Origin: Verrucomicrobiota bacterium
Lineage (GTDB): Bacteria; Verrucomicrobiota; Verrucomicrobiia; Opitutales; Opitutaceae
Assembly (NCBI GenBank): GCA_026398135.1
Contig: JAPLTN010000044.1
Location: 1-43,838 of the forward strand
Reading direction: 5' to 3'
DNA: 43,838 nucleotides
Of this stretch, positions 1 to 9,181 are shown piece by piece. The notes beneath the pieces are model-generated. The model was not told the DNA's origin and searched no databases. It saw only the letters and a list, made by a program, of their open reading frames with translations. How positions within the stretch are numbered: position 1 is the stretch's first letter; every line of letters begins with the position of its first letter. Made by a program: the position numbers and the translations under genes.

Positions 1-65
1 TTGGCTTTGTCCAAATCGCGACAGGCGATTGTTGACCAAGCAGAGATGTCAGGAGTGGCGGGCAT
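1..65 (-). CDS. HEPN-like toxin partner, N-terminal end only (partial)
   Basis: An open frame starts at an ATG at 65 and runs off the left edge, giving 21 visible residues (MPATPDISAWSTIACRDLDK...). It begins inside the last codons of the nucleotidyltransferase gene, in another frame, so the two would be translationally coupled. The W-x(5)-RDL-x-A pattern resembles the first helix of small HEPN proteins, which usually read like W-L-x-x-A-x-x-D-L. Known family behaviour: HEPN/MNT pairs form toxin-antitoxin modules in which the HEPN protein is an RNase and the MNT enzyme AMPylates it. The assignment rests on position and a very short motif, so it is tentative. The RX4-6H RNase motif would lie outside the window. 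Confidence 0.45.
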   Translation of the reverse strand, partial: MPATPDISAWSTIACRDLDKA

Positions 66-399
66 AGAGGCAGACTCCTTTTTGGGTTATATCCGGGAAG
101 AGCGTGGTGCGGTCGTCGCGGTGTTGGTGCCATAACTCGGGAGTAACTACGTTGAGTCCCAAGGGTAAGGTGCCTTGTAGATGTGCGAGGCGACGGGAAA
201 TTTGGTGGCGGGTGGTTCCTCCACTCACTATAAGTAAGTCTATATCGCTATCCGGCCCGGCTTCTCCGCGAGCGACTGAGCCGTAAACCCAAATTTCCTC
301 CGCGCCGAAATCTTCAATCAACGCGCGCAGACACTCTTGAAGCCGAGTAACGGCATCCGGAAGGGGGGGGAGTCGGAGTTGGGTTAGGTCAGCGGTCAC
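49..399 (-). CDS. MNT-type nucleotidyltransferase (MntA-like antitoxin)
   Basis: This 116-residue protein is a minimal nucleotidyltransferase. Around residues 39-57 it carries the polymerase-beta signature GSVARGEAGPDSDIDLLI, which is the GS-x(n)-DxD motif that binds metal and NTP. The rest is short, as in stand-alone MNT proteins. Family knowledge: such proteins act as antitoxins that AMPylate a HEPN toxin encoded beside them. Here the next frame downstream overlaps the stop of this gene and looks like the start of a HEPN protein, which supports that role. A different minimal nucleotidyltransferase function cannot be excluded because the partner is cut by the window edge. Confidence 0.85.
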   Translation of the reverse strand: MTADLTQLRLPPLPDAVTRLQECLRALIEDFGAEEIWVYGSVARGEAGPDSDIDLLIVSGGTTRHQISRRLAHLQGTLPLGLNVVTPELWHQHRDDRTTLFPDITQKGVCLYARHS

Positions 400-702
400 G
401 GAGCGGGGCGGGGGGAGAGGGGGAGGAGCTAGTAAGCGGTAAGCTAGTAGAGCTGAGCGGTTGATAGGTTGATGGGTTGCTGCGGAGCGGAGGGCGGCGG
501 AGCGGCGGGACGCCGCAGGTTAAGTTGAAAGTTTAAGTTTAAGGGCTGGGGGGCGGGGAGGTTCGGAGTTGGTAAGCTAGCGGAGCGGCGGAAATGACGA
601 ATGTCTAATGTCGAATGACGAATGGCGGAGGGAGGAGCTGGTAAGCTAGTAAGCTGGTAAGCGGATGAGCTGGTAGAGCTAGTAAGCTAGGAGCGGGGAT
701 GA
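400..702. repeat. Gene-free stretch with degenerate intergenic repeats
   Basis: No credible gene is present. The stretch is built of low-complexity units. One is a roughly 10-bp motif AGCTRGTA / GGTAAGCTAG, repeated near 427-450, 571-580 and 634-692. Another is a short run of AATGACGAATG variants at 593-628. GGAGCGGGG-type G-rich units lie between them. Related AGCTGGTA and AATGACGAATG units recur at about 1345-1360 and 1385-1420, on the other side of the PIN gene. There are no spacers of constant length, so it is not a CRISPR array. Confidence 0.7.
593..628. repeat. AATGACGAATG intergenic repeat, copy 1
   Basis: Four near-copies of an 8-10 base unit (AATGACG, AATGTCT, AATGTCG, AATGACG) sit in tandem and end in AATGGCGG. 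The same pattern with the same ending occurs at 1385-1420. Read on the other strand it is CATTCGTCATTCG, a non-coding repeat style that I associate with verrucomicrobial genomes. Function unknown. Confidence 0.65.
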
Positions 703-1131
703 TTATGCGCGCCGCAGTGAAGAGGAAGGGAATTCAGTTTGAATCAGGTTGCCTAGGCGGGTGCGGTAGAGGGTGGAATCCACTTTATCTGTGGTTATAA
801 CCGAGCTCCCAAACTGCTCGTACATAGATACTAAACAGGCATACGCATAATCTGCACGCGGGTGATACTTTTCCAAACAATGGGATACGGCCACCCTGTT
901 TTTAGGCAAGACCGGGTGTATGCGAAGCCATTGAGATTCAATCATGGCAAGCACGGCATGTTTAGCGCGCTCGCTCGCCCGAATGTGGTAAATAAGTTCG
1001 GTGATAACGGCTTCGCAGGTATCAAAACCTTGTGGATGGGTGGCAGCCATCTGTTTCGCCCACGGGTGATGCTCGTCTCGCGCGTCGAGCAAGGCGAGCA
1101 GCACACCGGTATCGATCAGGGGGCGTGGCAT
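703..1131 (-). CDS. PIN-domain protein, VapC-like ribonuclease
   Basis: The 142-residue protein has the layout of a PIN domain. It starts with PLIDTGVLLALLDARDEHH, where D7 and the second Asp are the expected first metal ligands. It has a central acidic residue in EAVITELIYHI (around residue 40-47), ADYAYACLV (around 93), and the C-terminal VITTDKVDSTLYR with the last conserved Asp. PIN proteins of this size are usually VapC toxins that cut tRNA or rRNA. A 59-codon ORF ends 6 bases upstream of the start, in the place where an antitoxin gene would be. Activity and toxin status are inferred from family and layout only. Confidence 0.75.
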   Translation of the reverse strand: MPRPLIDTGVLLALLDARDEHHPWAKQMAATHPQGFDTCEAVITELIYHIRASERAKHAVLAMIESQWLRIHPVLPKNRVAVSHCLEKYHPRADYAYACLVSMYEQFGSSVITTDKVDSTLYRTRLGNLIQTEFPSSSLRRA

Positions 1132-1137
1132 AACAAA

Positions 1138-1317
1138 TCAGGTTAGCGCTTTGCGGGAGGAAAGTTTGCCGTCCGATGGGCCATCGTAGGCCCCTATTAC
1201 CCAAGTTGGGAGCAAGGACGGTGTAGAGTTGAGTGGGCGCGCTTGGGCTTTGGCTAGCTTGGCTCTAGCTGAGGTGGGTTTGCCGGGACGAACCTTCGAG
1301 GATTTAAGCACTTTCAT
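1138..1317 (-). CDS. Small ORF upstream of PIN gene, candidate antitoxin
   Basis: This ORF encodes 59 residues (MKVLKSSKVRPGKPTSARAK...) and stops 6 bases before the PIN start. The first half is strongly basic and the second half is more acidic and aromatic (LLPTWVIGAYDGPSDG). I do not recognise it as any named VapB family. The spacing, strand and size fit the antitoxin slot of a VapBC-type pair. It could also be chance, since the region is GC-rich and repeat-rich. Confidence 0.45.
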   Translation of the reverse strand: MKVLKSSKVRPGKPTSARAKLAKAQARPLNSTPSLLPTWVIGAYDGPSDGKLSSRKALT

Positions 1318-1384
1318 GTTCGGTTGGAGGGGCGGAGCGGGGCGCTAGTAAAGCTGGTAGAGCGGGGAGGTGGGAGCGATGGAA

Positions 1385-1420
1385 AATGACGAATGACTGA
1401 TGCCGTATGACGAATGGCGG
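1385..1420. repeat. AATGACGAATG intergenic repeat, copy 2
   Basis: Second copy of the AATGACGAATG tandem repeat, ending in the same AATGGCGGAGCGG context as the copy at 593-628. It lies in the gap between the small ORF and the TPR gene. Confidence 0.65.
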
Positions 1421-1453
1421 AGCGGGGGGGGGCTGACCGACAGCGGTATGAGC

Positions 1454-1473
1454 GGCCTTCGCAAGCGAAGGCC
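1454..1473. repeat. Perfect 9-bp hairpin (REP-like)
   Basis: GGCCTTCGC-AA-GCGAAGGCC is a perfect inverted repeat 15 bases beyond the stop codon of the TPR gene. A close relative with one mismatch lies at 6608-6627, also just past a gene end and followed by CCCT. There is no T-run, so it is not a classic intrinsic terminator. It is better read as a dispersed REP-like element that may stall transcription or protect mRNA ends. Confidence 0.6.
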
Positions 1474-1487
1474 CTACAGGGGGTGGG

Positions 1488-2882
1488 TTAGCGGCTGGAG
1501 TAGAAGGCGTCGATCTTGTTGGCGACGTCGCGGAAGCCGATGTCGTCGCTGTAGATGAGTTTATACTCGGTGATGGCTTCCTGGGCTTTGCCCATGCCTT
1601 CGTAGCATTCGGCGAGTTGGTAGATGATGTCTTTTTTAAGGTCGTCCATGGTGGCGATCTCACTCTTGGCGACTTGGAACTGCTGGACCGCGAGGTCGTA
1701 CATCTTGCGGGCTTTGAGGGTCTTGCCCATGCCGGCGAGGGCGGCGAGGCGGACTTTGGGCGACTTTTGCGCTTGTTGGAAGTTGGCGATGGCCTGCTGG
1801 TGGTCGCCGGCTTCGAGGAGGAGGTTGGCGAGGGTGAATTTGGCGGCGTAGTCGTTGGGGTAGCGTTCGACGTAGGCTTTGGCGTCGGCGAGTTTGACTT
1901 GGGTCAACTCGGCGAGGGCGGCGGTGTGGGCTTGCTGGGCGGCGGTGTCGTCGGGGGTGGCGGCGAGTTGGGCGGCGAGGGTTTTGAGGCGGGCTTCGAG
2001 TACGCTGACGGCGAGGTCGCTTTGGAGTTTTTCGAGGGTGGCGTCGCCGGAGGCGGAGGGGAGGAGGCGGGCTTTTTTGACGTATTCGAGGGCGGAGGCG
2101 GGGTCTTCGAGGCGGCGGTAGCCGTCGATGATGGAGCGGTAGTGATTGAGGTTTTGCGGTTCGGCGGCGAGGCGTTGCTTGGCTTCGTCGATGAGGCGCT
2201 GGGTGGCTTCGCCGGTGGTGACGACTTTGCCGGCTTGTTCGAGGGAATTGGCCTGGGCCTCGTCTTTGAGTTTTTCGCGGAAGGTGCTTTGGGTCTCCCA
2301 GTGGCCTTTGTCCATGGTCTGGGCCACGGAGGCGCGGCGCATGAGTGCGAGGGCGTCGCCGTCCTGGGGGCGAAGCTTGAGCATCTCGTCGGCGATGCGG
2401 AGGGCGTCTTTGTTGAGTTTGGCGTTGAGGTAGGCCTCGGCGAGGTGAAGGAGGGTGTCGTGGTCGCGGGGTTGGATTTCGCGAATGCAGTCCCAGGCGT
2501 AGGCGGCGGTTTCGAGGAGTCCGAGGGCGGCGGTGGCTTCGGCGAGGTTTTTGAGGGCGGGTATGCTCTTGGGGTCGCCGTGGAGGAGTTTTTCGGCGGT
2601 TTCGAGGGATTTGGCGGGGTCTTTTTTGCTGCCGCCGAAGAGGAAGCCCGCCATGGTGACGGAGCCTAAGGCCTTGGACACGAAGGAGGTTTTGCCTTCG
2701 TGGTGACGGATGAGGGCGGCGCGTTGCAGGCGGCGAACCGGGAGGCAGCCGGGGGCGGCCTTCAGAACTTGGGACGTGACCTCGATCACGTAGTCGTAAT
2801 TAGCGCGCTGGAGAGCGACTTGGGCAGATTCGATCTGTTTTTGCAGACGGGGATCGAGGGCGGTGAGGGGAACTTCCTGCAT
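1488..2882 (-). CDS. Tetratricopeptide-repeat protein
   Basis: A 464-residue protein made almost entirely of amphipathic helix pairs. TPR-like units are visible around residues 90-180 (SIPALKNLAEATAALGLLE, then HDTLLHLAEAYLNAKLNKDA) and again near 355-450 (DYAAKFTLANLLLEAGDH, IIYQLAECYEGMGKAQEAI). A helical Ala/Gln-rich middle section links them. There is no signal peptide, although a short Gly/Phe-rich stretch lies near residues 77-85. TPR proteins act as scaffolds for protein-protein contacts, and no partner is evident from the neighbours. The start at MQEVPLTAL is the only reasonable one in frame. Confidence 0.8.
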   Translation of the reverse strand: MQEVPLTALDPRLQKQIESAQVALQRANYDYVIEVTSQVLKAAPGCLPVRRLQRAALIRHHEGKTSFVSKALGSVTMAGFLFGGSKKDPAKSLETAEKLLHGDPKSIPALKNLAEATAALGLLETAAYAWDCIREIQPRDHDTLLHLAEAYLNAKLNKDALRIADEMLKLRPQDGDALALMRRASVAQTMDKGHWETQSTFREKLKDEAQANSLEQAGKVVTTGEATQRLIDEAKQRLAAEPQNLNHYRSIIDGYRRLEDPASALEYVKKARLLPSASGDATLEKLQSDLAVSVLEARLKTLAAQLAATPDDTAAQQAHTAALAELTQVKLADAKAYVERYPNDYAAKFTLANLLLEAGDHQQAIANFQQAQKSPKVRLAALAGMGKTLKARKMYDLAVQQFQVAKSEIATMDDLKKDIIYQLAECYEGMGKAQEAITEYKLIYSDDIGFRDVANKIDAFYSSR

Positions 2883-3110
2883 GGGAGAGGGGGGAAAGGA
2901 GCGAGAAACCGAGGCTAAACGTGTCGGCAGATATAAGACTGTAATCGACTCTCAAAGTGGAAAATAAACCACAAAAGGCAAGGGGCGCGTTGGTGCTGTC
3001 TTCAAAATAATCCGACGCTCTGCTTTCGCCCTGCGGGTGAGAGGGAACCCAAACCGGGCCGGCGTTGCCCTCGGTGGCACGAGCCTCTGGCCCGCATCCG
3101 CGTTCAGGCG

Positions 3111-3130
3111 ATTTTTCTGCCCCCATTTTT
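3111..3130. repeat. Left arm of 20-bp inverted repeat around the GxxExxY gene
   Basis: The sequence ATTTTTCTGCCCCCATTTTT is the exact reverse complement of 3957-3976. The arm is followed inward by CTGACTAAAC, and the opposite arm by ATGACTTAAAC when read inward, so similarity continues for about 10 more bases with a gap. The arm also contains a direct repeat, ATTTTTCTG. Confidence 0.85.
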
Positions 3131-3143
3131 CTGACTAAACGAT

Positions 3144-3944
3144 TTATCGGGTTAGCGATACCAATTGAATCTCATGACGTCGCAAGTTAACCCACTGCAA
3201 AGTGCGCAATGGACTGAGCCGAAGCATCGCACGCAGGTGGTGCTCATATTGGGAAGTGCTTTCGGTTAAAGCGGTGACCCGAAACGCCGTTTCCGGGTTA
3301 AGCATGTGGAAGCATTGCGTGCCCAAACTGGCGCGGCCGCGAGTCAGCGGCAACCGTTGGACAACCTGGTCTTCACCTCCGGCAAAATGGATTAGCGCTT
3401 CGGTGTAGAGTTCCAGATTCAGCCAGCACCCCCAGTCATTCAACAAGTCCAAGAGGTTCTCGCGAAAGAATCGATCCGTCTGATCGTGCTCCTGCCAGGC
3501 TTTCATATCGACCGAAAACTGGCGTCGCTCGGGGTGGGTCAGCGTGGCGTTGACGAATCGCGACTCAACCTGCGCTGGCCTGAAGTTGATCAGCTTGCCG
3601 TGATGCGCTCCGCACAAGAAAAGATAATTGAGCAGCTGGGCTTCGTGCGAACCAGCCAGGGCGAGGGCGGTCTTGAGTTCATAAATACCGGCGTTGGCGA
3701 CGATCAGATCGGGCAAATAGGTCTTCGCAAAATCTCCGTGCGTGACAGTGACGCCGACTTCCGTTGCCGCCTCCAACCCCGCCTCCTTGAGCCGTGCTAC
3801 CAAGTCATTTTGATAAATCGACTCTTCGCAAAGTCGCCCCAGTTCATTCTGACTTTCGAATGCGATTCGCATCACCAGATAATCCAGTTCCGCGAATTCT
3901 CTTTGGTTGATCGGGCGCAAACCATGCGGGCTGATGATGGGCAT
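3144..3944 (-). CDS. GxxExxY family protein with extra C-terminal domain
   Basis: The first ~130 residues carry the family marks: GRLCEESIY matches GxxxExxY near residue 36, followed by PDLIVANAGIYELKT (around 97-111), where the Asp and the E-x-K fit a PD-(D/E)xK nuclease-like core, and LLNYLFLCGAHHGKLINF. GxxExxY proteins are usually about 120-140 residues, so this 266-residue form has a second half (about 135-266) I do not recognise. Function of the family is not settled. The gene sits alone between two inverted-repeat arms at 3111-3130 and 3957-3976, so it may travel as a small unit. Confidence 0.75.
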   Translation of the reverse strand: MPIISPHGLRPINQREFAELDYLVMRIAFESQNELGRLCEESIYQNDLVARLKEAGLEAATEVGVTVTHGDFAKTYLPDLIVANAGIYELKTALALAGSHEAQLLNYLFLCGAHHGKLINFRPAQVESRFVNATLTHPERRQFSVDMKAWQEHDQTDRFFRENLLDLLNDWGCWLNLELYTEALIHFAGGEDQVVQRLPLTRGRASLGTQCFHMLNPETAFRVTALTESTSQYEHHLRAMLRLSPLRTLQWVNLRRHEIQLVSLTR

Positions 3945-3956
3945 TGTTTAAGTCAT

Positions 3957-3976
3957 AAAAATGGGGGCAGAAAAAT
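3957..3976. repeat. Right arm of 20-bp inverted repeat around the GxxExxY gene
   Basis: AAAAATGGGGGCAGAAAAAT is the exact reverse complement of 3111-3130. It starts 12 bases upstream of the GxxExxY start codon, so it may also hold or replace the promoter of that gene. Confidence 0.85.
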
Positions 3977-4393
3977 GAAACGAAATCCTTATACTCGCTC
4001 AAACCAGCCCTTTTCATTCGGTTAATGCATATGGGCCAGCGGCCCATGCCGCCTCTCGCGCCTTGGCCGAGCCACACTTCACGTTCCCGACGGACTGAAT
4101 TTAAACCCATACACGCCCCAGGTTTTGCGCCAGGCGGAGCCTGCAAGGGAGGGCGATTGTACGGCCAATGGTCTCAGCTATTAGGCTGCTGTTTTAATCG
4201 AACTCCGGCTTATTCTCATGCGCGTTCAAGTTTAGCGTAATCTTAGGCTTTGCAAGGTCCGGGGGAGCGCACCCGTCTCGGGTGCTTAGCAGTGCGCATC
4301 GCCCTGCGATCTGAGTTTCCGGCGAGACGCCAAAAATAGCCTGCGGGAAGCGGCTCTCCCCGCACCGTTTAAAATACGGCGGAGAAACGGAGT
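3977..4393. other. Gene-free gap
   Basis: I see no credible gene here. A 7-bp GC hairpin, GCACCCG-TCT-CGGGTGC, lies at 4269-4285, beyond the 3' end of the VOC gene. It lacks a T-run on either side and could be a weak stop signal for that gene. Confidence 0.5.
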
Positions 4394-5329
4394 TCATGCG
4401 GGGAGCGGGGGGAGGGTGGCTTCGATGGCGGCGCGGTGGGGTTCGTATCGGGCGGGGAGTTTTAGGGTGGTGCCGAGGGTTTCCAGGGGCTCGTCGATGG
4501 CGAAGCCGGGGGTGTCGGTGGCGATTTCGAAGAGGATGCCGCCGGGTTCGCGGGCGTAGATGGAGTGGAAGTAGTTGCGGTCCATCTGGGGGCTCACGTT
4601 GAGACCGGCTGTTTGCCATTCGGAGCGGGCGGCGAGCTCGGCTTCGTCGTCCGCAACGCGGAAGGCGACGTGGTGGACGGTGCCCAGGCCGGGTTGGCCG
4701 CGCGGCCCGTCGGGCAGGGTGAGCAGATCGAGACAGGTGCCGGGGACTCCCTGAGCTAAAGCGTAGCGAGCGCGGCGGGTGGTTTCGTCGCGGGTGGTTT
4801 CCCGCGCGCCCATGGTGGAGACGAGGAGCGCGGCGGTGCGGGCGGACGCGGCGTGGGTGAGGGTGACGGAGTGGAAGCCACGCAGGCCGTGGGCAATTGG
4901 AATGTCGGGATGGGACCAAGGCTGGCGAGGGTCGGGTTCGCGGGTGGCGACGATTTCTAGGCCGAGGCCATCGGGATCGGCGAAGCGGAGCACTTGGTCG
5001 CCGAAACGGGCTTCGGTGGTGAAGGGAAGGTGATGGGCGGTGAGGCGGGCGGTCCAGAAGTCGAGGGACGCGGCGGGTACGGACCAGGCGGTGGCGGTGA
5101 CCTGGTCGGAGCCGATACGGCCGCGCGGTTGTCCGGCCCAGTAGAAAAAAGTGAGGGCGGAGCCGGGGGTGCCGACGGTGTCGCCGAAATAGAGGTGGTA
5201 AGTGGAGGGATCGTCGAAATTGACGGTGCGTTTGATGAGGCGCAGGCCGAGGACGCGGGTGTAAAAGGCTACGTTGGCGACGGGATCGCCAGCCATGGCG
5301 GTGATGTGGTGGAGGCCGAGGAGGTTCAT
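4394..5329 (-). CDS. VOC-family ring-cleaving dioxygenase (MhqO-like)
   Basis: 311 residues, the usual length for MhqO/LinE-type proteins. It has two vicinal-oxygen-chelate modules. The first begins LGLHHITAMAGDPVANVAFYTRVLGL and has DPDGLGLEIVAT near residue 120. The second begins GLRGFHSVTL near 148, with TVHHVAFRVAD near 218 and GGILFEIATDTPGF near 260. The metal set of such enzymes (His in LHHI, His in VHHVAF, Glu in LFEIATD) is visible. Family members are thought to cleave hydroquinone- or catechol-type rings using Fe(II). No quinone-stress regulator or reductase adjoins it, so the substrate is open. It stands alone on the minus strand. Confidence 0.85.
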   Translation of the reverse strand: MNLLGLHHITAMAGDPVANVAFYTRVLGLRLIKRTVNFDDPSTYHLYFGDTVGTPGSALTFFYWAGQPRGRIGSDQVTATAWSVPAASLDFWTARLTAHHLPFTTEARFGDQVLRFADPDGLGLEIVATREPDPRQPWSHPDIPIAHGLRGFHSVTLTHAASARTAALLVSTMGARETTRDETTRRARYALAQGVPGTCLDLLTLPDGPRGQPGLGTVHHVAFRVADDEAELAARSEWQTAGLNVSPQMDRNYFHSIYAREPGGILFEIATDTPGFAIDEPLETLGTTLKLPARYEPHRAAIEATLPPLPA

Positions 5330-5502
5330 TTTGAGTTACACGCCTTTGAAATGCGAATTTGGCAACAACGGGCGCAATATCCACACTGTCCGGTGCACCT
5401 CGGGGATTCACGAACGACTGTCTGCTCCATCATCTTGCGTCACCTCATCGGCTCCAAAAGCGGATTTCGGGTTGAACGGTTAAAGAGGGGGCATGAGACA
5501 GA

Positions 5503-5570
5503 GCCGCAGCCCGACCAGCGGACGGGCTGCGGCAAAGGGCACAGAGGCGGCGGGGTGCGGCGACCCCGCC
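5503..5570. terminator. Tandem GC-rich hairpins downstream of rpiB
   Basis: Two strong stems lie just past the stop of rpiB (minus strand, stop at 5595). One is an 11-bp perfect stem, GCCGCAGCCCG with CGGGCTGCGGC (5503-5513 / 5523-5533). The other is an 8-bp perfect stem, GGCGGGGT with ACCCCGCC (5549-5556 / 5563-5570). Neither has a clear T-run, so this is a possible GC-rich terminator or mRNA-end structure rather than a textbook one. Confidence 0.5.
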
Positions 5571-5594
5571 CTGCATGGATCGGCGGTTGCGGAG

Positions 5595-6035
5595 TTAGGC
5601 TAGCTCAATTTTCTGGATACGCGGGAGGTGGCGGCCGCCCTCGAAGGGGGTGGCGAGCCAGGTGCGGACGATCTTGAGGGCCTCGTCCAAGGTCACGGTG
5701 CGTTCGCCGAGGGAGAGCACGTTGCCGTCGTTGTGGGAGCGGTTCCAGATGGCGACTTGCTCGTTCCAGCAAAGGCCGCAGCGGATGCCTTTGACCTTGT
5801 TGGCCACAATGGCTTCGCCGTTGCCGGAGCCGCCGAGCACTATGCCGAACTTAAATTCGCGGCGGGCGACGGCTTCGGCGGTGGGGCGGATCCAGTCGGG
5901 GTAGTCGCAGGAGGCGTCGGAGTAGGTGCCGAAATCCTTCACGGTGTGGCCCTCGGAGAGGAGCATGGCCTTGATGGCCTCTTTGTATTTGAAGCCGGCG
6001 TGGTCGGAGCCGATGGCAATGGTGAAGGTGGACAT
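5595..6035 (-). CDS. rpiB: Ribose-5-phosphate isomerase B
   Basis: The 146-residue protein interconverts ribose 5-phosphate and ribulose 5-phosphate in the pentose phosphate pathway. It opens with IAIGSDHAGFKYKE, the RpiB/LacAB signature. It has FGIVLGGSGNGEAIVANKVKGIRCGLCW near residues 65-92, which contains the phosphate-binding GxGNGE loop, and then NRSHNDGNVLSLGER near 98-112. The catalytic Cys of many RpiBs is replaced by Ser or Thr in some members. Here the loop reads GGSGNG where many enzymes read GTGIG, with Ser in place of the usual Thr. I chose the start at MSTFTIA because the longer frame would add translated intergenic repeat (FRISAFRISAF). Confidence 0.9.
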   Translation of the reverse strand: MSTFTIAIGSDHAGFKYKEAIKAMLLSEGHTVKDFGTYSDASCDYPDWIRPTAEAVARREFKFGIVLGGSGNGEAIVANKVKGIRCGLCWNEQVAIWNRSHNDGNVLSLGERTVTLDEALKIVRTWLATPFEGGRHLPRIQKIELA

Positions 6036-6056
6036 GGGAAGGAGACGGAAGGGGAG

Positions 6057-6096
6057 ACGAAAAGCGGAAATGCGGAAAGCGGAAATGCGGAAAAAA
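6057..6096. repeat. GCGGAAA repeat array 1
   Basis: Tandem degenerate units of GCGGAAA / TGCGGAAA (about 4-5 copies) lie just upstream of the rpiB start (minus strand). Similar arrays lie at 7788-7820 and 8443-8504, each directly in front of another minus-strand gene. Confidence 0.7.
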
Positions 6097-6160
6097 TCGG
6101 CGCAACAGGCGGCGGGTTTCACCTGATAGCGGGCACGGGGGCGCAGAGGTAAACTGGGGA

Positions 6161-6598
6161 ATGAAAAAGAGAGCTATCGGCGGGTGGTTTCGCGTGGTTT
6201 TAATTTTGGCCTGCGGCGCGGGTCTGCTCGGTGGCTGTCAATCGACACCGGAGCGACGAATCGCGAAGAAGGAGGCGGTGTTTTCCAGCTGGTCGGCGCA
6301 AACGCAGGCGAAGATACGCGGCGGGCAGATCGAAGTCGGGTTTACGCCGCAGCAGGTGGAAATGGCGAAGGGCAAACCGGACCGGGTGGGGCGGCGCACC
6401 ACGAAAGCAGGAGACCGGGTGGAGTGGGTCTATTTGTGGAACGATTCACGTTTCTCGCTCGGCTTTGGTCTGGGCCTGGGCAGAGGGAACTTCGAGGAAG
6501 CCGTGGACGCGGGTACCGAAATGAGCGTGGCGGGCGTAGCGACGCGGGTGTTTTTCACCGCCGGGGTGGTCTCGGCGTTTGAGCACTATTCGCAGTGA
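6161..6598 (+). CDS. Small lipoprotein
   Basis: 145 residues. A basic start (MKKRAIGGWFR) and a hydrophobic stretch (VVLILACGAG) lead to the lipobox LLGGC, with the lipidated Cys near residue 26, so export and attachment to a membrane is likely. The mature part includes QIEVGFTPQQVEMAKGKPDRV, reminiscent of the SmpA/OmlA (BamE-type) idea of a short alpha-beta fold with a turn after 'GxxxxxVxxxxGxPD'. The C-terminal part is Gly-rich and hydrophobic (SLGFGLGLGRGNF). I would not call it BamE. It lies alone on the plus strand, divergent from rpiB. Confidence 0.7.
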   Translation: MKKRAIGGWFRVVLILACGAGLLGGCQSTPERRIAKKEAVFSSWSAQTQAKIRGGQIEVGFTPQQVEMAKGKPDRVGRRTTKAGDRVEWVYLWNDSRFSLGFGLGLGRGNFEEAVDAGTEMSVAGVATRVFFTAGVVSAFEHYSQ

Positions 6599-6607
6599 GC
6601 GTGAAGC

Positions 6608-6627
6608 GGCATTCGCAAGCGAACGCC
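6608..6627. repeat. REP-like hairpin, second copy
   Basis: GGCATTCGC-AA-GCGAACGCC pairs over 9 positions with one A-C mismatch. It starts 10 bases after the lipoprotein stop and matches the element at 1454-1473 in loop, length and flanking CCCT. Confidence 0.55.
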
Positions 6628-6771
6628 CTGCGAAGGCACGGTTGAGGATTTGGACTATCGCGGAAATTGGCCAGGGACGGCCAACGCCACACAAAAAAGT
6701 CTGCTGCAAAGCCAACTAAGTGAGCTCACTTGAACGCGAAATAGAACAGCCATGGCAGGGCGTTTGAATTC

Positions 6772-7764
6772 TCAAGCGCCGACGGGGCGGGTGAGGAGGA
6801 CGGTGTTGAGGCCGGGGAGGCGTTCGGAGAATTCCTGGGCGGGGTCGGCCTGGCGGAGGGTGCGCTGGACCATGCCCATCTTGGCGTCGAGGTTGTCGAT
6901 CATGCTGACAAACACGGCCTCGGCGGTGGCGGCGTAGATGGCCGCGCCCCACTCGGGTTCGCCCTGGTGACTGAGGATGATGTGTTCGAGGCGTTCGAGG
7001 CGCTCGGGGTCGAGGCGGGCTTTGATGCCGTGTTTGCGGGCGAGTTGGTAGCCGAGCACGACGTGGCCCTGGAGGATGCCGCGGCGGCTGCGTTTGGTGG
7101 CGAGGGTGCCTTCGTATTCGATGGTTTTGCCGGTGTCGTGCAGGAGGATGCCGGCGAGGGCGAGGTCGGGGTCCACTTCGAGGTAGAGCGGGAGGAGGGC
7201 GCGGCAGGCGCGGGCCATGTGGAGGGTGTGTTCGAGCAGGCCGTGGCGGTAGGCGTGGTGCATGGCCACGGCGGCGGGGGCGTAGCGGAAGGCCTCGCCG
7301 ATCTCCTCGAAAACGCCGCGCACGGTCATGCGCAGTTCGTCGTGGCGGATGAGGTCGATGAAGGTCTGGAACTCGGCCCAGAGCTCGGCCCCGTTTTCGG
7401 GCGGGAGCTCGACGAGGGCGTCCACCAAGCCGGGTTCGGCGGCGATTTGCTCCTCGGAAAGCACGGCGGCCTTGAAGATTTTAGGCGAGAAACGGCCTTG
7501 GAAAGAATCAGAGCGGCCCTCGATGCGGACGACCGAGCCATCGCCGGCGGCTTTGATCGGATCGAAGAGGGGGCTGTCGCCGAAGAGGGTGCAGGAGAAA
7601 CTTCCGCCGCGGTCGCCGAGTTCGAGGGAGAGGAAGGGGTTGCCGTTGGAAGCGGTTTTGACCTGGAGCTTTTTCACCACGAGCACGGCGGCAAAGGGTG
7701 CGCCGGCGTGGAGATCGGGGGACTTGAGTTCGCGAACGGTGAGCAGCGGAGGGGCGTCGGACAT
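6772..7764 (-). CDS. OB-fold/HD-domain 3'-5' exoribonuclease, YhaM type
   Basis: The 330-residue protein has an N-terminal OB-type nucleic-acid-binding part (about 5-100, with FAAVLVVKKLQVKTASNGNPFLSLELGDR) and a C-terminal HD phosphohydrolase part. HD ligands are seen in MHHAYRHGLLEHTLHMA (around 155-171), LAGILLHDTGKTIEY (around 190) and LEHIILSHQGEPEWG (around 252-266). This order and size match YhaM/CbfI-like 3'-5' exonucleases of Bacillus and relatives, which degrade RNA or single-stranded DNA with Mn(II). I chose MSDAPPLL as start because it is five codons inside the longest frame, just clear of the repeat array. Specific substrate is inferred from family. Confidence 0.85.
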   Translation of the reverse strand: MSDAPPLLTVRELKSPDLHAGAPFAAVLVVKKLQVKTASNGNPFLSLELGDRGGSFSCTLFGDSPLFDPIKAAGDGSVVRIEGRSDSFQGRFSPKIFKAAVLSEEQIAAEPGLVDALVELPPENGAELWAEFQTFIDLIRHDELRMTVRGVFEEIGEAFRYAPAAVAMHHAYRHGLLEHTLHMARACRALLPLYLEVDPDLALAGILLHDTGKTIEYEGTLATKRSRRGILQGHVVLGYQLARKHGIKARLDPERLERLEHIILSHQGEPEWGAAIYAATAEAVFVSMIDNLDAKMGMVQRTLRQADPAQEFSERLPGLNTVLLTRPVGA

Positions 7765-7787
7765 GGTGGAAAGAAGCAAAAAAGGTT

Positions 7788-7820
7788 GAAACGCGGAAAA
7801 GCGGAAACGCGGAAATCGAG
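7788..7820. repeat. GCGGAAA repeat array 2
   Basis: Units GAAACGCGGAAAAGCGGAAA and a third GCGGAAA occupy most of the gap between the HD gene start and the end of the isochorismatase-like gene. Confidence 0.7.
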
Positions 7821-7831
7821 GGATGGGGTGA

Positions 7832-8440
7832 TCAGGGGGTGGCGTGGGTTTTGACCAGGGCGGAGATTGCTCGGAAGTCGGGGTGGGCGGCGTTGTGGAG
7901 CAGGGCGTAGAGGACGGTTTCGACCGGGAGCACGGTGATGCCGGAGGCGCGGAGGGCGGCGAGCACGGTGGCGTGGTCTTCTGCGCGGCGGCCGGCGACG
8001 GCGTCGCTCAGGATGGTCACCTGAAAGCCTTCGGCGAGGGCGCCGAGGGCGGATTGGTAAACGCAGACCGGGGTTTCGAGACCGATTAGGAGAAGGTGCT
8101 CGATGGATTGGGCGCGGAGGGCTTCGAGGAGGGCGGGCTCGGCGAGGGCGGAGAAGGTGGTTTTGGCAAATACCGGCGCGGCGGGCGCGAGGGCGCGGAG
8201 GGCGGGGGCGGTGGGGCCGAGTTTGGCCGGGACTTGCTCGGAGAAGAAAATCGGGATGCGCAGGGCGGCGGCGGCGGCGAGGGCAAGGCTGGCGCGGGCG
8301 GTGACGGCGGCGGCGGTGGCGGCGGGCAGAACGCCGAGCAGGGTACTTTGAAGGTCGATGGCGAGCAGGGCTGCGCCGGGGGCGGCGGACTCGGGAACGG
8401 GAGCGGGGGCGGTGACGGGAGATTTCACGGAGCGGGACAT
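7832..8440 (-). CDS. Isochorismatase-family hydrolase
   Basis: 202 residues with the catalytic triad pattern of the cysteine-hydrolase superfamily. Asp lies in LLAIDLQSTLL (around residue 28), Lys in VFAKTTFSAL (around 95), and the nucleophile Cys in LIGLETPVCVYQSALGAL (around 126). Members cleave isochorismate, nicotinamide or related amides. Those with this short form in a housekeeping setting have no agreed substrate. The gene lies between the HD and phosphatase genes on the same strand, each separated by a GCGGAAA array rather than overlapping. Confidence 0.8.
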   Translation of the reverse strand: MSRSVKSPVTAPAPVPESAAPGAALLAIDLQSTLLGVLPAATAAAVTARASLALAAAAALRIPIFFSEQVPAKLGPTAPALRALAPAAPVFAKTTFSALAEPALLEALRAQSIEHLLLIGLETPVCVYQSALGALAEGFQVTILSDAVAGRRAEDHATVLAALRASGITVLPVETVLYALLHNAAHPDFRAISALVKTHATP

Positions 8441-8442
8441 GG

Positions 8443-8504
8443 GGCGGAAAAGCGGAAAAGCGGAAATTTTGAAACGCGGAAAACGGAAAAGCGGAAATTG
8501 GGCG
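8443..8504. repeat. GCGGAAA repeat array 3
   Basis: This is the longest of the three arrays. Six or so GCGGAAA-like units (including GAAACGCGGAAAACGGAAAA) fill the space between the isochorismatase-like start and the phosphatase stop. Confidence 0.7.
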
Positions 8505-8518
8505 GAGGGAGCGGGGAG

Positions 8519-9181
8519 TTAGTCGCCGTAGTAGCGGCGGCGGGCTTTGACCTGCACGAAGCGGCGTTCGGGCAGGATGTAGGCGGTGAGGTGGCCGCCG
8601 AAAACGCAGGCGGTATCGATGCCGACCGACCATTTGAGGCGGAAGATGTCGGGGCGCGGAGTATGGCCATAGATGACAAACGGCGGGCCGGCCCAGCGTT
8701 CGGCCCAAGGGGTGGCATCGGGGGCGTCGGCGCGTTTGCGAGGGCGGCCTTCGGCGTCGATCACCTGAATGCGGGTGACGATGGAAACGGGTTGTTTTTG
8801 CCAGGGTTCGCCGGGGAGGAAACCCCCGTGCACGACGACGAGATTGAGGTCGGGAATCTCGTGAGTGAGGGGCATTTTTTCCAGGTAGGCCCAGTGGTGG
8901 GGCTGGAGGGCGTTAAAGGTTTGTTCGTCGTCGTCCTTGAGCAGGGCGCGGTTCTGGGTGGCCCGATAGGCGAGCAGGCGTGACTCGTGGTTGCCGAGCA
9001 CGGAGAGGGCGTTATGGCGGAGGGCGAGGTCGATGACGCGGGCGCTGTCGGGGCCGCGATTGATGAGATCGCCGACGAGGATGAGGCGATCGTCGGGCGT
9101 GAGGGCGAGACGGTCGAGGAGTTCGGCGAATTCTTGGTGACATCCGTGGATGTCGCCGATGGCAATGATGCGACCGTTCAT
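8519..9181 (-). CDS. PPP-type metallophosphatase
   Basis: 220 residues with every metal-binding block of the PPP superfamily in order: GDIHGC (around 8), GDLINRGPDS (around 38), LGNHES (around 62), VVVHGGF (around 116) and VIYGHTP (around 168). Bacterial homologues act as Ser/Thr protein phosphatases or as Ap4A hydrolases (ApaH-like), and the sequence alone does not choose between them. It is the first of three minus-strand genes and diverges from the plus-strand gene at 9251. Confidence 0.85.
   Translation of the reverse strand: MNGRIIAIGDIHGCHQEFAELLDRLALTPDDRLILVGDLINRGPDSARVIDLALRHNALSVLGNHESRLLAYRATQNRALLKDDDEQTFNALQPHHWAYLEKMPLTHEIPDLNLVVVHGGFLPGEPWQKQPVSIVTRIQVIDAEGRPRKRADAPDATPWAERWAGPPFVIYGHTPRPDIFRLKWSVGIDTACVFGGHLTAYILPERRFVQVKARRRYYGD

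Follow-up and report, generated by a model that had tools for sequence, protein, structure and literature searches.

A two-domain GxxExxY gene between inverted doublet arms in a Verrucomicrobiota genome: probable copy of a small mobile element

What kind of unit is formed when a GxxExxY gene lies between the halves of a perfect inverted repeat? The question is raised by the window, which is the whole 43,838-nt stretch of contig JAPLTN010000044.1 analyzed here, where ATTTTTCTGCCCCCATTTTT occurs exactly at bp 3111-3130 on the plus strand and again at bp 3957-3976 on the minus strand, a span of 866 bp. No such pair appeared in 100 shuffles with up to 3 mismatches allowed, which confirms the perfect 20-bp inverted repeat of the preliminary description, and the inexact similarity reported inward of it takes the form of arms that extend to 26 nt (bp 3111-3136 and 3951-3976; 25 of 26 positions match, with one mismatch). 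The left arm, for its part, is a doublet made of two direct repeats, ATTTTTCTG-CCCCC-ATTTTTCTG. The arms are separated from the start codon by 6 bp and from the stop codon by 7 bp, and the locus lies between protein genes, with a TPR gene on one side and a glyoxalase-type gene on the other. The unit thus has terminal or subterminal inverted repeats, as insertion sequences (IS) and transposons do. Further copies of the 20-mer are absent from the window's own 3.39-Mb genome at up to 2 mismatches. Near the element, bp 49-1131 of the window encode, on the same strand, a small nucleotidyltransferase (bp 49-399) and a PIN-domain protein (bp 703-1131). The features of the unit are as follows (G numbers denote compared genomes, L numbers loci).

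3102-3110, no strand: outer left piece GTTCAGGCG, common to the G530 copy
3111-3136, plus strand: doublet arm 3' of the gene (ATTTTTCTG CCCCC ATTTTTCTG ACT)
3144-3944, minus strand: long (two-domain) GxxExxY protein, 266 aa
3153-3467, minus strand: C-terminal domain, about aa 160-264, a degenerate GxxExxY domain in which no invariant residue is catalytic
3564-3887, minus strand: N-terminal PD-(D/E)XK (GxxExxY) domain, aa 20-127
3951-3976, minus strand: doublet arm 5' of the gene, 25/26 identical to the other arm
3977-4028, no strand: upstream part of the element, ending in GGTTAATGC at 4020-4028, common to the G530 and G624 copies
4031-4047, no strand: palindrome ATGGGCCAGCGGCCCAT beside the outer end; a comparable hairpin is present on both sides in G624

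The N-terminal domain of the protein scores above two curated cut-offs, those of TIGR04256 GxxExxY (69 bits against 35, aa 20-127) and PF13366 PDDEXK_3 (73.9 bits against 22). Its residues E41, D79, E89, K91 and Q103 are invariant among 20 aligned long proteins; these are the catalytic residues of a PD-(D/E)XK active site, here retained. In contrast to these families, the window protein has two domains, the second of which is degenerate; its invariants in the same alignment are G172, L175, Y180, G190, W251 and N253. The doubled length pointed out in the preliminary description therefore stands, while the second half, called unrecognised there, can be assigned by profile comparison: hhalign matched window-type C-terminal domains to the second domain in tandem GxxExxY proteins at 78% (E-value: 1.7e-5) and more weakly to first domains (E-values of 0.0003 to 0.0015), with raw scores of at least 25.7, whereas 60 column shuffles compared with one target reached no more than 19.3. 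Two clear GxxExxY domains are found at L263, L270 and L271, and Pfam gives two PDDEXK_3 stretches each at L263 and L272. Predicted structures of the window protein and one homologue were rejected as evidence (mean pLDDT 37). The sole PDB profile match was 4ic1_A, a Cas4 (aa 63-139, E-value: 0.21); this likeness to Cas4/RecB-like nucleases is not significant. One paper reports a gene beside a reverse transcriptase to which two programs gave different names, cas4 and GxxExxY (PMC8934634). GxxExxY genes are common here, being present in 100 of 141 relatives and, over the cut-off, in 42 of 99 genomes of a set drawn around a Rhodopirellula record.

Copies of the unit were found at other sites. Among 387 genomes of the phylum, the 20-mer occurs at up to 1 mismatch in two, one of them the window's; the single match in G314 (1 mismatch) sits inside a long ORF and was treated as chance. 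The exact 20-mer is present in 55 stretches of the GTDB collection, 22 of which come from one Verrucomicrobiota assembly, BJHT01. A GxxExxY relative was detected at an E-value of 1e-5 in two of the 55: L062 (G417) carries a full gene (75% identity) between the same arms as in the window, and L109 (G530) carries an internally deleted gene between those arms. When window bp 1-9000 were compared with the G417 locus, DNA homology was limited to bp 3105-3990, with none around it. The unit was matched at an E-value of 1e-5 in 8 of 252 family genomes; in three of these (G541, G632 and G512) the match is confined to the gene interior, leaving window-type units in five: G000, G417, G530, G624 (two places) and G635 (two places). 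There was no match in the 14 other genomes of the same genus. Relatives of the gene in catalogued viral contigs were likewise not confirmed, and carriage by catalogued viruses was rejected as an explanation.

There are at least seven window-type copies, the numbers per genome being lower bounds based on the best two candidates in each; G637 (via L059) and G624 show by eye one identical copy, which was counted once. Two copies are intact and five are internally deleted or remnants. The full gene is kept in G000 and G417. In G530, aa 1-51 are fused to 247-266; the first G624 copy retains about codons 1-76 and has lost the rest, and the second has about codons 1-21 fused to 234-266. The first G635 copy consists of two doublet arms with 31 bp between them, and the second of one arm and the gene start only. 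Internally deleted copies with both ends, a feature of MITEs, are thus seen in G530, in both places in G624 and in the first G635 copy. When flanking DNA (up to 1.2 kb) was compared among the seven copies, there were no cross-matches at an E-value of 1e-5, and the boundaries of the unit are similar across several genomes. Because a homologous unit, whole or gutted, recurs at unrelated sites in other bacteria and its graded deletions mostly spare the arms, the unit looks like a mobile element; judged by these comparisons its mobility is well supported, and the compact mobile cassette envisaged at the outset is borne out.

The outer ends were compared by eye. Variants of GCATTAACC ... GGTTAATGC bound the copies in G417, G530 and G624, and the G624 ends form an inverted repeat of 33 bp, of which 31 match, and include a hairpin. 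The window carries an end of this type on the 5' side only: GGTTAATGC lies a few bases beyond the GTTCAGGCG piece in G417 and G530 and is missing there from the window.

The preliminary description had also proposed looking for empty sites and target-site duplications. The glyoxalase gene was found at an E-value of 1e-60 in 8 of 15 genomes of the genus, including the window's. In G389, one of the other seven, a TPR gene lies within 1.5 kb of the glyoxalase gene with no GxxExxY gene between them. Homology to the window ends 12 bp short of the arm on one side (bp 3099) and at bp 4380 on the other, and 421 bp of unrelated DNA occupy the place of the element. This comparison shows presence and absence of the unit, so that an element-free site has been found; it is not a clean empty site, and no target-site duplication was found at G389, the one comparable site. 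The 421 bp (L304, bp 2451-2871) contain an inverted repeat of their own, 25 bp long (88%).

Doublets of this kind are also dispersed without the gene. In a set of 20 genomes, TTCCTRCC doublets numbered 38 in G632, 16 in G443, 15 in G567, 14 in G512, 11 each in G425 and G496, 8 in G417, 6 each in G541 and G574, 5 in G554 and 1 each in G122 and G530, with none in the remaining eight; the reversed pattern occurred once in G122, once in G399 and not at all in G632. Many of the doublets are inverted pairs that form units of about 150 bp, units of 184 bp or compact hairpins of 68-70 bp, and the interiors and borders of the 150-bp units look alike by eye. At L283-L296, a dispersed family of such 150-bp units with TTCCTACC doublets is seen in several genera, the 184-bp units being oppositely oriented. 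G636 has 82 TTTTTCTG doublets and none of the reversed pattern; two of the doublets bracket a GxxExxY gene. Gene-less units are near-identical in JAUSID01 (three copies, 135-138 bp shared, 93-96% identity), and copies in PLIU01 share 82-182 bp at 89-94% identity. Dispersed inverted doublets cognate to a gene occur in G636, G632, G443 and G512, and not in the window's own genome.

Are inverted arms a general property of GxxExxY genes? As a measure we used a flank score, an ungapped local match (+1/-2) between 250 bp on each side, a value that depends on where the flank starts: among 43 loci (L160-L202), 13 scored at least 15 with the rule used for control ORFs, and 21 of 42 did so with the rule of the main count. 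For the main count, 171 of 200 loci were used, after removal of 21 duplicates, 4 loci with short flanks and 4 without a profile match, these last being gutted window-type copies. Since the loci are the best-ranked ones by E-value and include vertical relatives (G443, G512, G541, G632), they are not independent. A score of at least 15 was reached by 26 of 33 long genes, with inverted doublet arms of their own, and by 62 of 138 short genes, with inverted arrays of short units (7 and 76 scored lower), against 22 of 400 and 6 of 400 mismatched flank pairs, respectively; the high null for long genes arises because the arms of relatives resemble each other. Only 2 of 219 other ORFs at the same loci scored as high, by eye a secreted-type and a deacetylase-like protein. 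In a Planctomycetota-centred set around the Rhodopirellula record, 16 of 29 did so (null 18 of 400).

The arms of long homologues differ in sequence but share one design, in which a direct-repeat doublet on one side of the gene is mirrored on the other: TTCCTACC doublets serve as arms in G541, G512, G443 and G632, ATTCCTTTGCC doublets at one G636 gene (L267), and a ATTTTTCTGCC pair (bp 6868-6891 and 7704-7727) around the gene on G636:C28 (L268, bp 6906-7688). At L272 (G645:C114), a two-domain GxxExxY gene lies within a perfect 30-bp inverted repeat, CCCACGGATGGCAGCGCGAACCCACGGATG. An arm period could be called for 20 short genes, 17 of them at 8-10 nt, and for 13 long genes, 12 of them at 14-17 nt; none passed the threshold in 37 and 12, respectively. 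Protein and arm similarity are correlated (r=0.49; 2 of 5000 permutations) over 12 of 21 loci, namely those shared with the protein alignment; once pairs of at least 60% identity are removed, r is 0.25.

Based on these results, we consider it probable, on balance, that the window holds a copy of a small mobile element of about 0.95 kb, encoding a two-domain GxxExxY nuclease, whose gutted copies are mobilised in trans. The N-terminal domain looks active and the C-terminal domain is a degenerate copy of it; together they would act as a pseudo-dimer on the doublet arms, each domain binding one half-site. The nuclease would then cut or nick at both inverted arms, and the freed or copied unit would go in elsewhere. 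Gene-less units with both arms could be moved in trans, as MITEs are by IS or REPINs by RAYTs. We infer that GxxExxY does the moving from three features: lineage-specific arms around the gene, a conserved active site and a number of domains that matches the arm design. It may recognise the arms and be active at present. Several observations count against this explanation, namely the want of a target-site duplication, of a clean empty site, of the 3' outer GGTTAATGC in the window and of further 20-mer copies in its genome, the low flank scores of 7 of 33 long and 76 of 138 short genes and the single arm of the second G635 copy, together with the similar bracketing of TIGR02436 genes, a four-helix-bundle family of unrelated fold.

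This last observation bears on the strongest alternative, that the unit is mobile but its arms are recognised by another enzyme of the cell, GxxExxY being cargo or a stabilising (selfish) gene. At TIGR02436 loci L341-L370, 15 of 30 score at least 15 (2 of 300 null pairs), so that the layout is common to at least two unrelated protein families and cannot be regarded as exclusive to GxxExxY. The TIGR02436 arms are inverted arrays of tandem units (AGTAGCG..., AGGAGTC...), for which the period, when one could be called, was mostly 7-8 nt. Moreover, G567, G496, G554 and G574 contain TTCCTRCC doublets, and a long GxxExxY gene with that arm was not seen in them, which weakens any rule of one gene for one repeat. 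We nevertheless think this alternative unlikely, because the active site is invariant and the arms vary with GxxExxY lineage, although linkage alone could produce the latter.

It is less probable still that the arms are binding or regulatory sites, for autoregulation or protection from the nuclease, rather than ends that are cut, with the unit spread by ordinary recombination. Their closeness to the start and stop codons in the window would suit such a role. However, copies at unrelated sites cease to be homologous close to the arms, and the arms survive most internal deletions.

An element acting at the RNA level has a precedent in the 23S rRNA intervening sequences (IVS): PMC4990558 describes a Coxiella IVS whose terminal inverted repeats pair as a 28-bp stem enclosing an S23p ORF, with cleavage by RNase III in vitro. 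The unit resembles it in having a small ORF between inverted repeats, and the arms could pair in the transcript, with selection on the stem, but its protein is unrelated, its locus lies between protein genes and there is no sign of selection on RNA. A selected stem predicts an excess of G.U-compatible over A.C-type arm mismatches, and the counts show none (33:55 for short genes, 18:22 for long genes and 8:14 for TIGR02436, the family of 23S IVS proteins). An mRNA panhandle, and with it the hairpin-bounded transcript offered in the preliminary description, was therefore rejected and must be considered very improbable; a known RNA family was also rejected, as bp 2880-4400 gave no Rfam match up to an E-value of 1. 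The transition mismatches of short-gene arms in fact lean away from G.U-compatible (33:55, p=0.025).

That the pair is due to chance, or to an ordinary intergenic repeat lying beside a gene by accident, is scarcely credible given flank statistics above those of controls and similar unit boundaries in several genomes, even though GxxExxY went undetected in 53 of the 55 stretches with the 20-mer. The 20-mer is for that reason mostly a dispersed intergenic repeat, as one possibility raised beforehand had it; the part of that possibility which denied any link to GxxExxY is weakened by BJHT01, the source of 22 of those stretches, where a long GxxExxY gene lies between two such doublets.

Among known systems, the proposed element would seem to work most like IS-MITE and REPIN-RAYT pairs, minus their defining enzymes. 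Insertion sequences give rise to MITEs in which the ends are kept and the gene is deleted. The same is seen here, with near-identical short units dispersed, but no recognised transposase and no target-site duplication was found. REPIN-RAYT systems, according to PMC3116915, comprise REP doublets that form hairpins and REP-associated tyrosine transposases, with groups of repeats near particular genes; the doublets here are similarly dispersed as inverted, hairpin-capable pairs. In contrast to those systems, the repeat-flanked gene encodes a PD-(D/E)XK GxxExxY protein (PDDEXK_3) and not a tyrosine transposase (RAYT, Y1/HUH), the arm is a direct-repeat doublet and not a REP palindrome, and gene-bearing and gutted copies of one unit lie at unrelated sites. 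GxxExxY genes are named in only 2 papers of the open-licence literature searched, no link from them to repeats was seen among the papers listed there on MITEs and repeats, and searches there for short arm strings gave unrelated hits among the matches listed.

More tentatively, Verrucomicrobiota and Planctomycetota might harbour small mobile elements of a class not yet recognised, with GxxExxY proteins as their enzymes and with arms particular to each lineage. One domain would go with units of mostly 8-10 nt and two fused domains with doublets of mostly 14-17 nt, gutted copies would become scattered REP-like hairpins, and TIGR02436 could be a second, unrelated enzyme of such elements. If this is true, a large uncharacterised nuclease family would have a function open to testing, and the origin of one class of dispersed repeats in bacteria would be explained.
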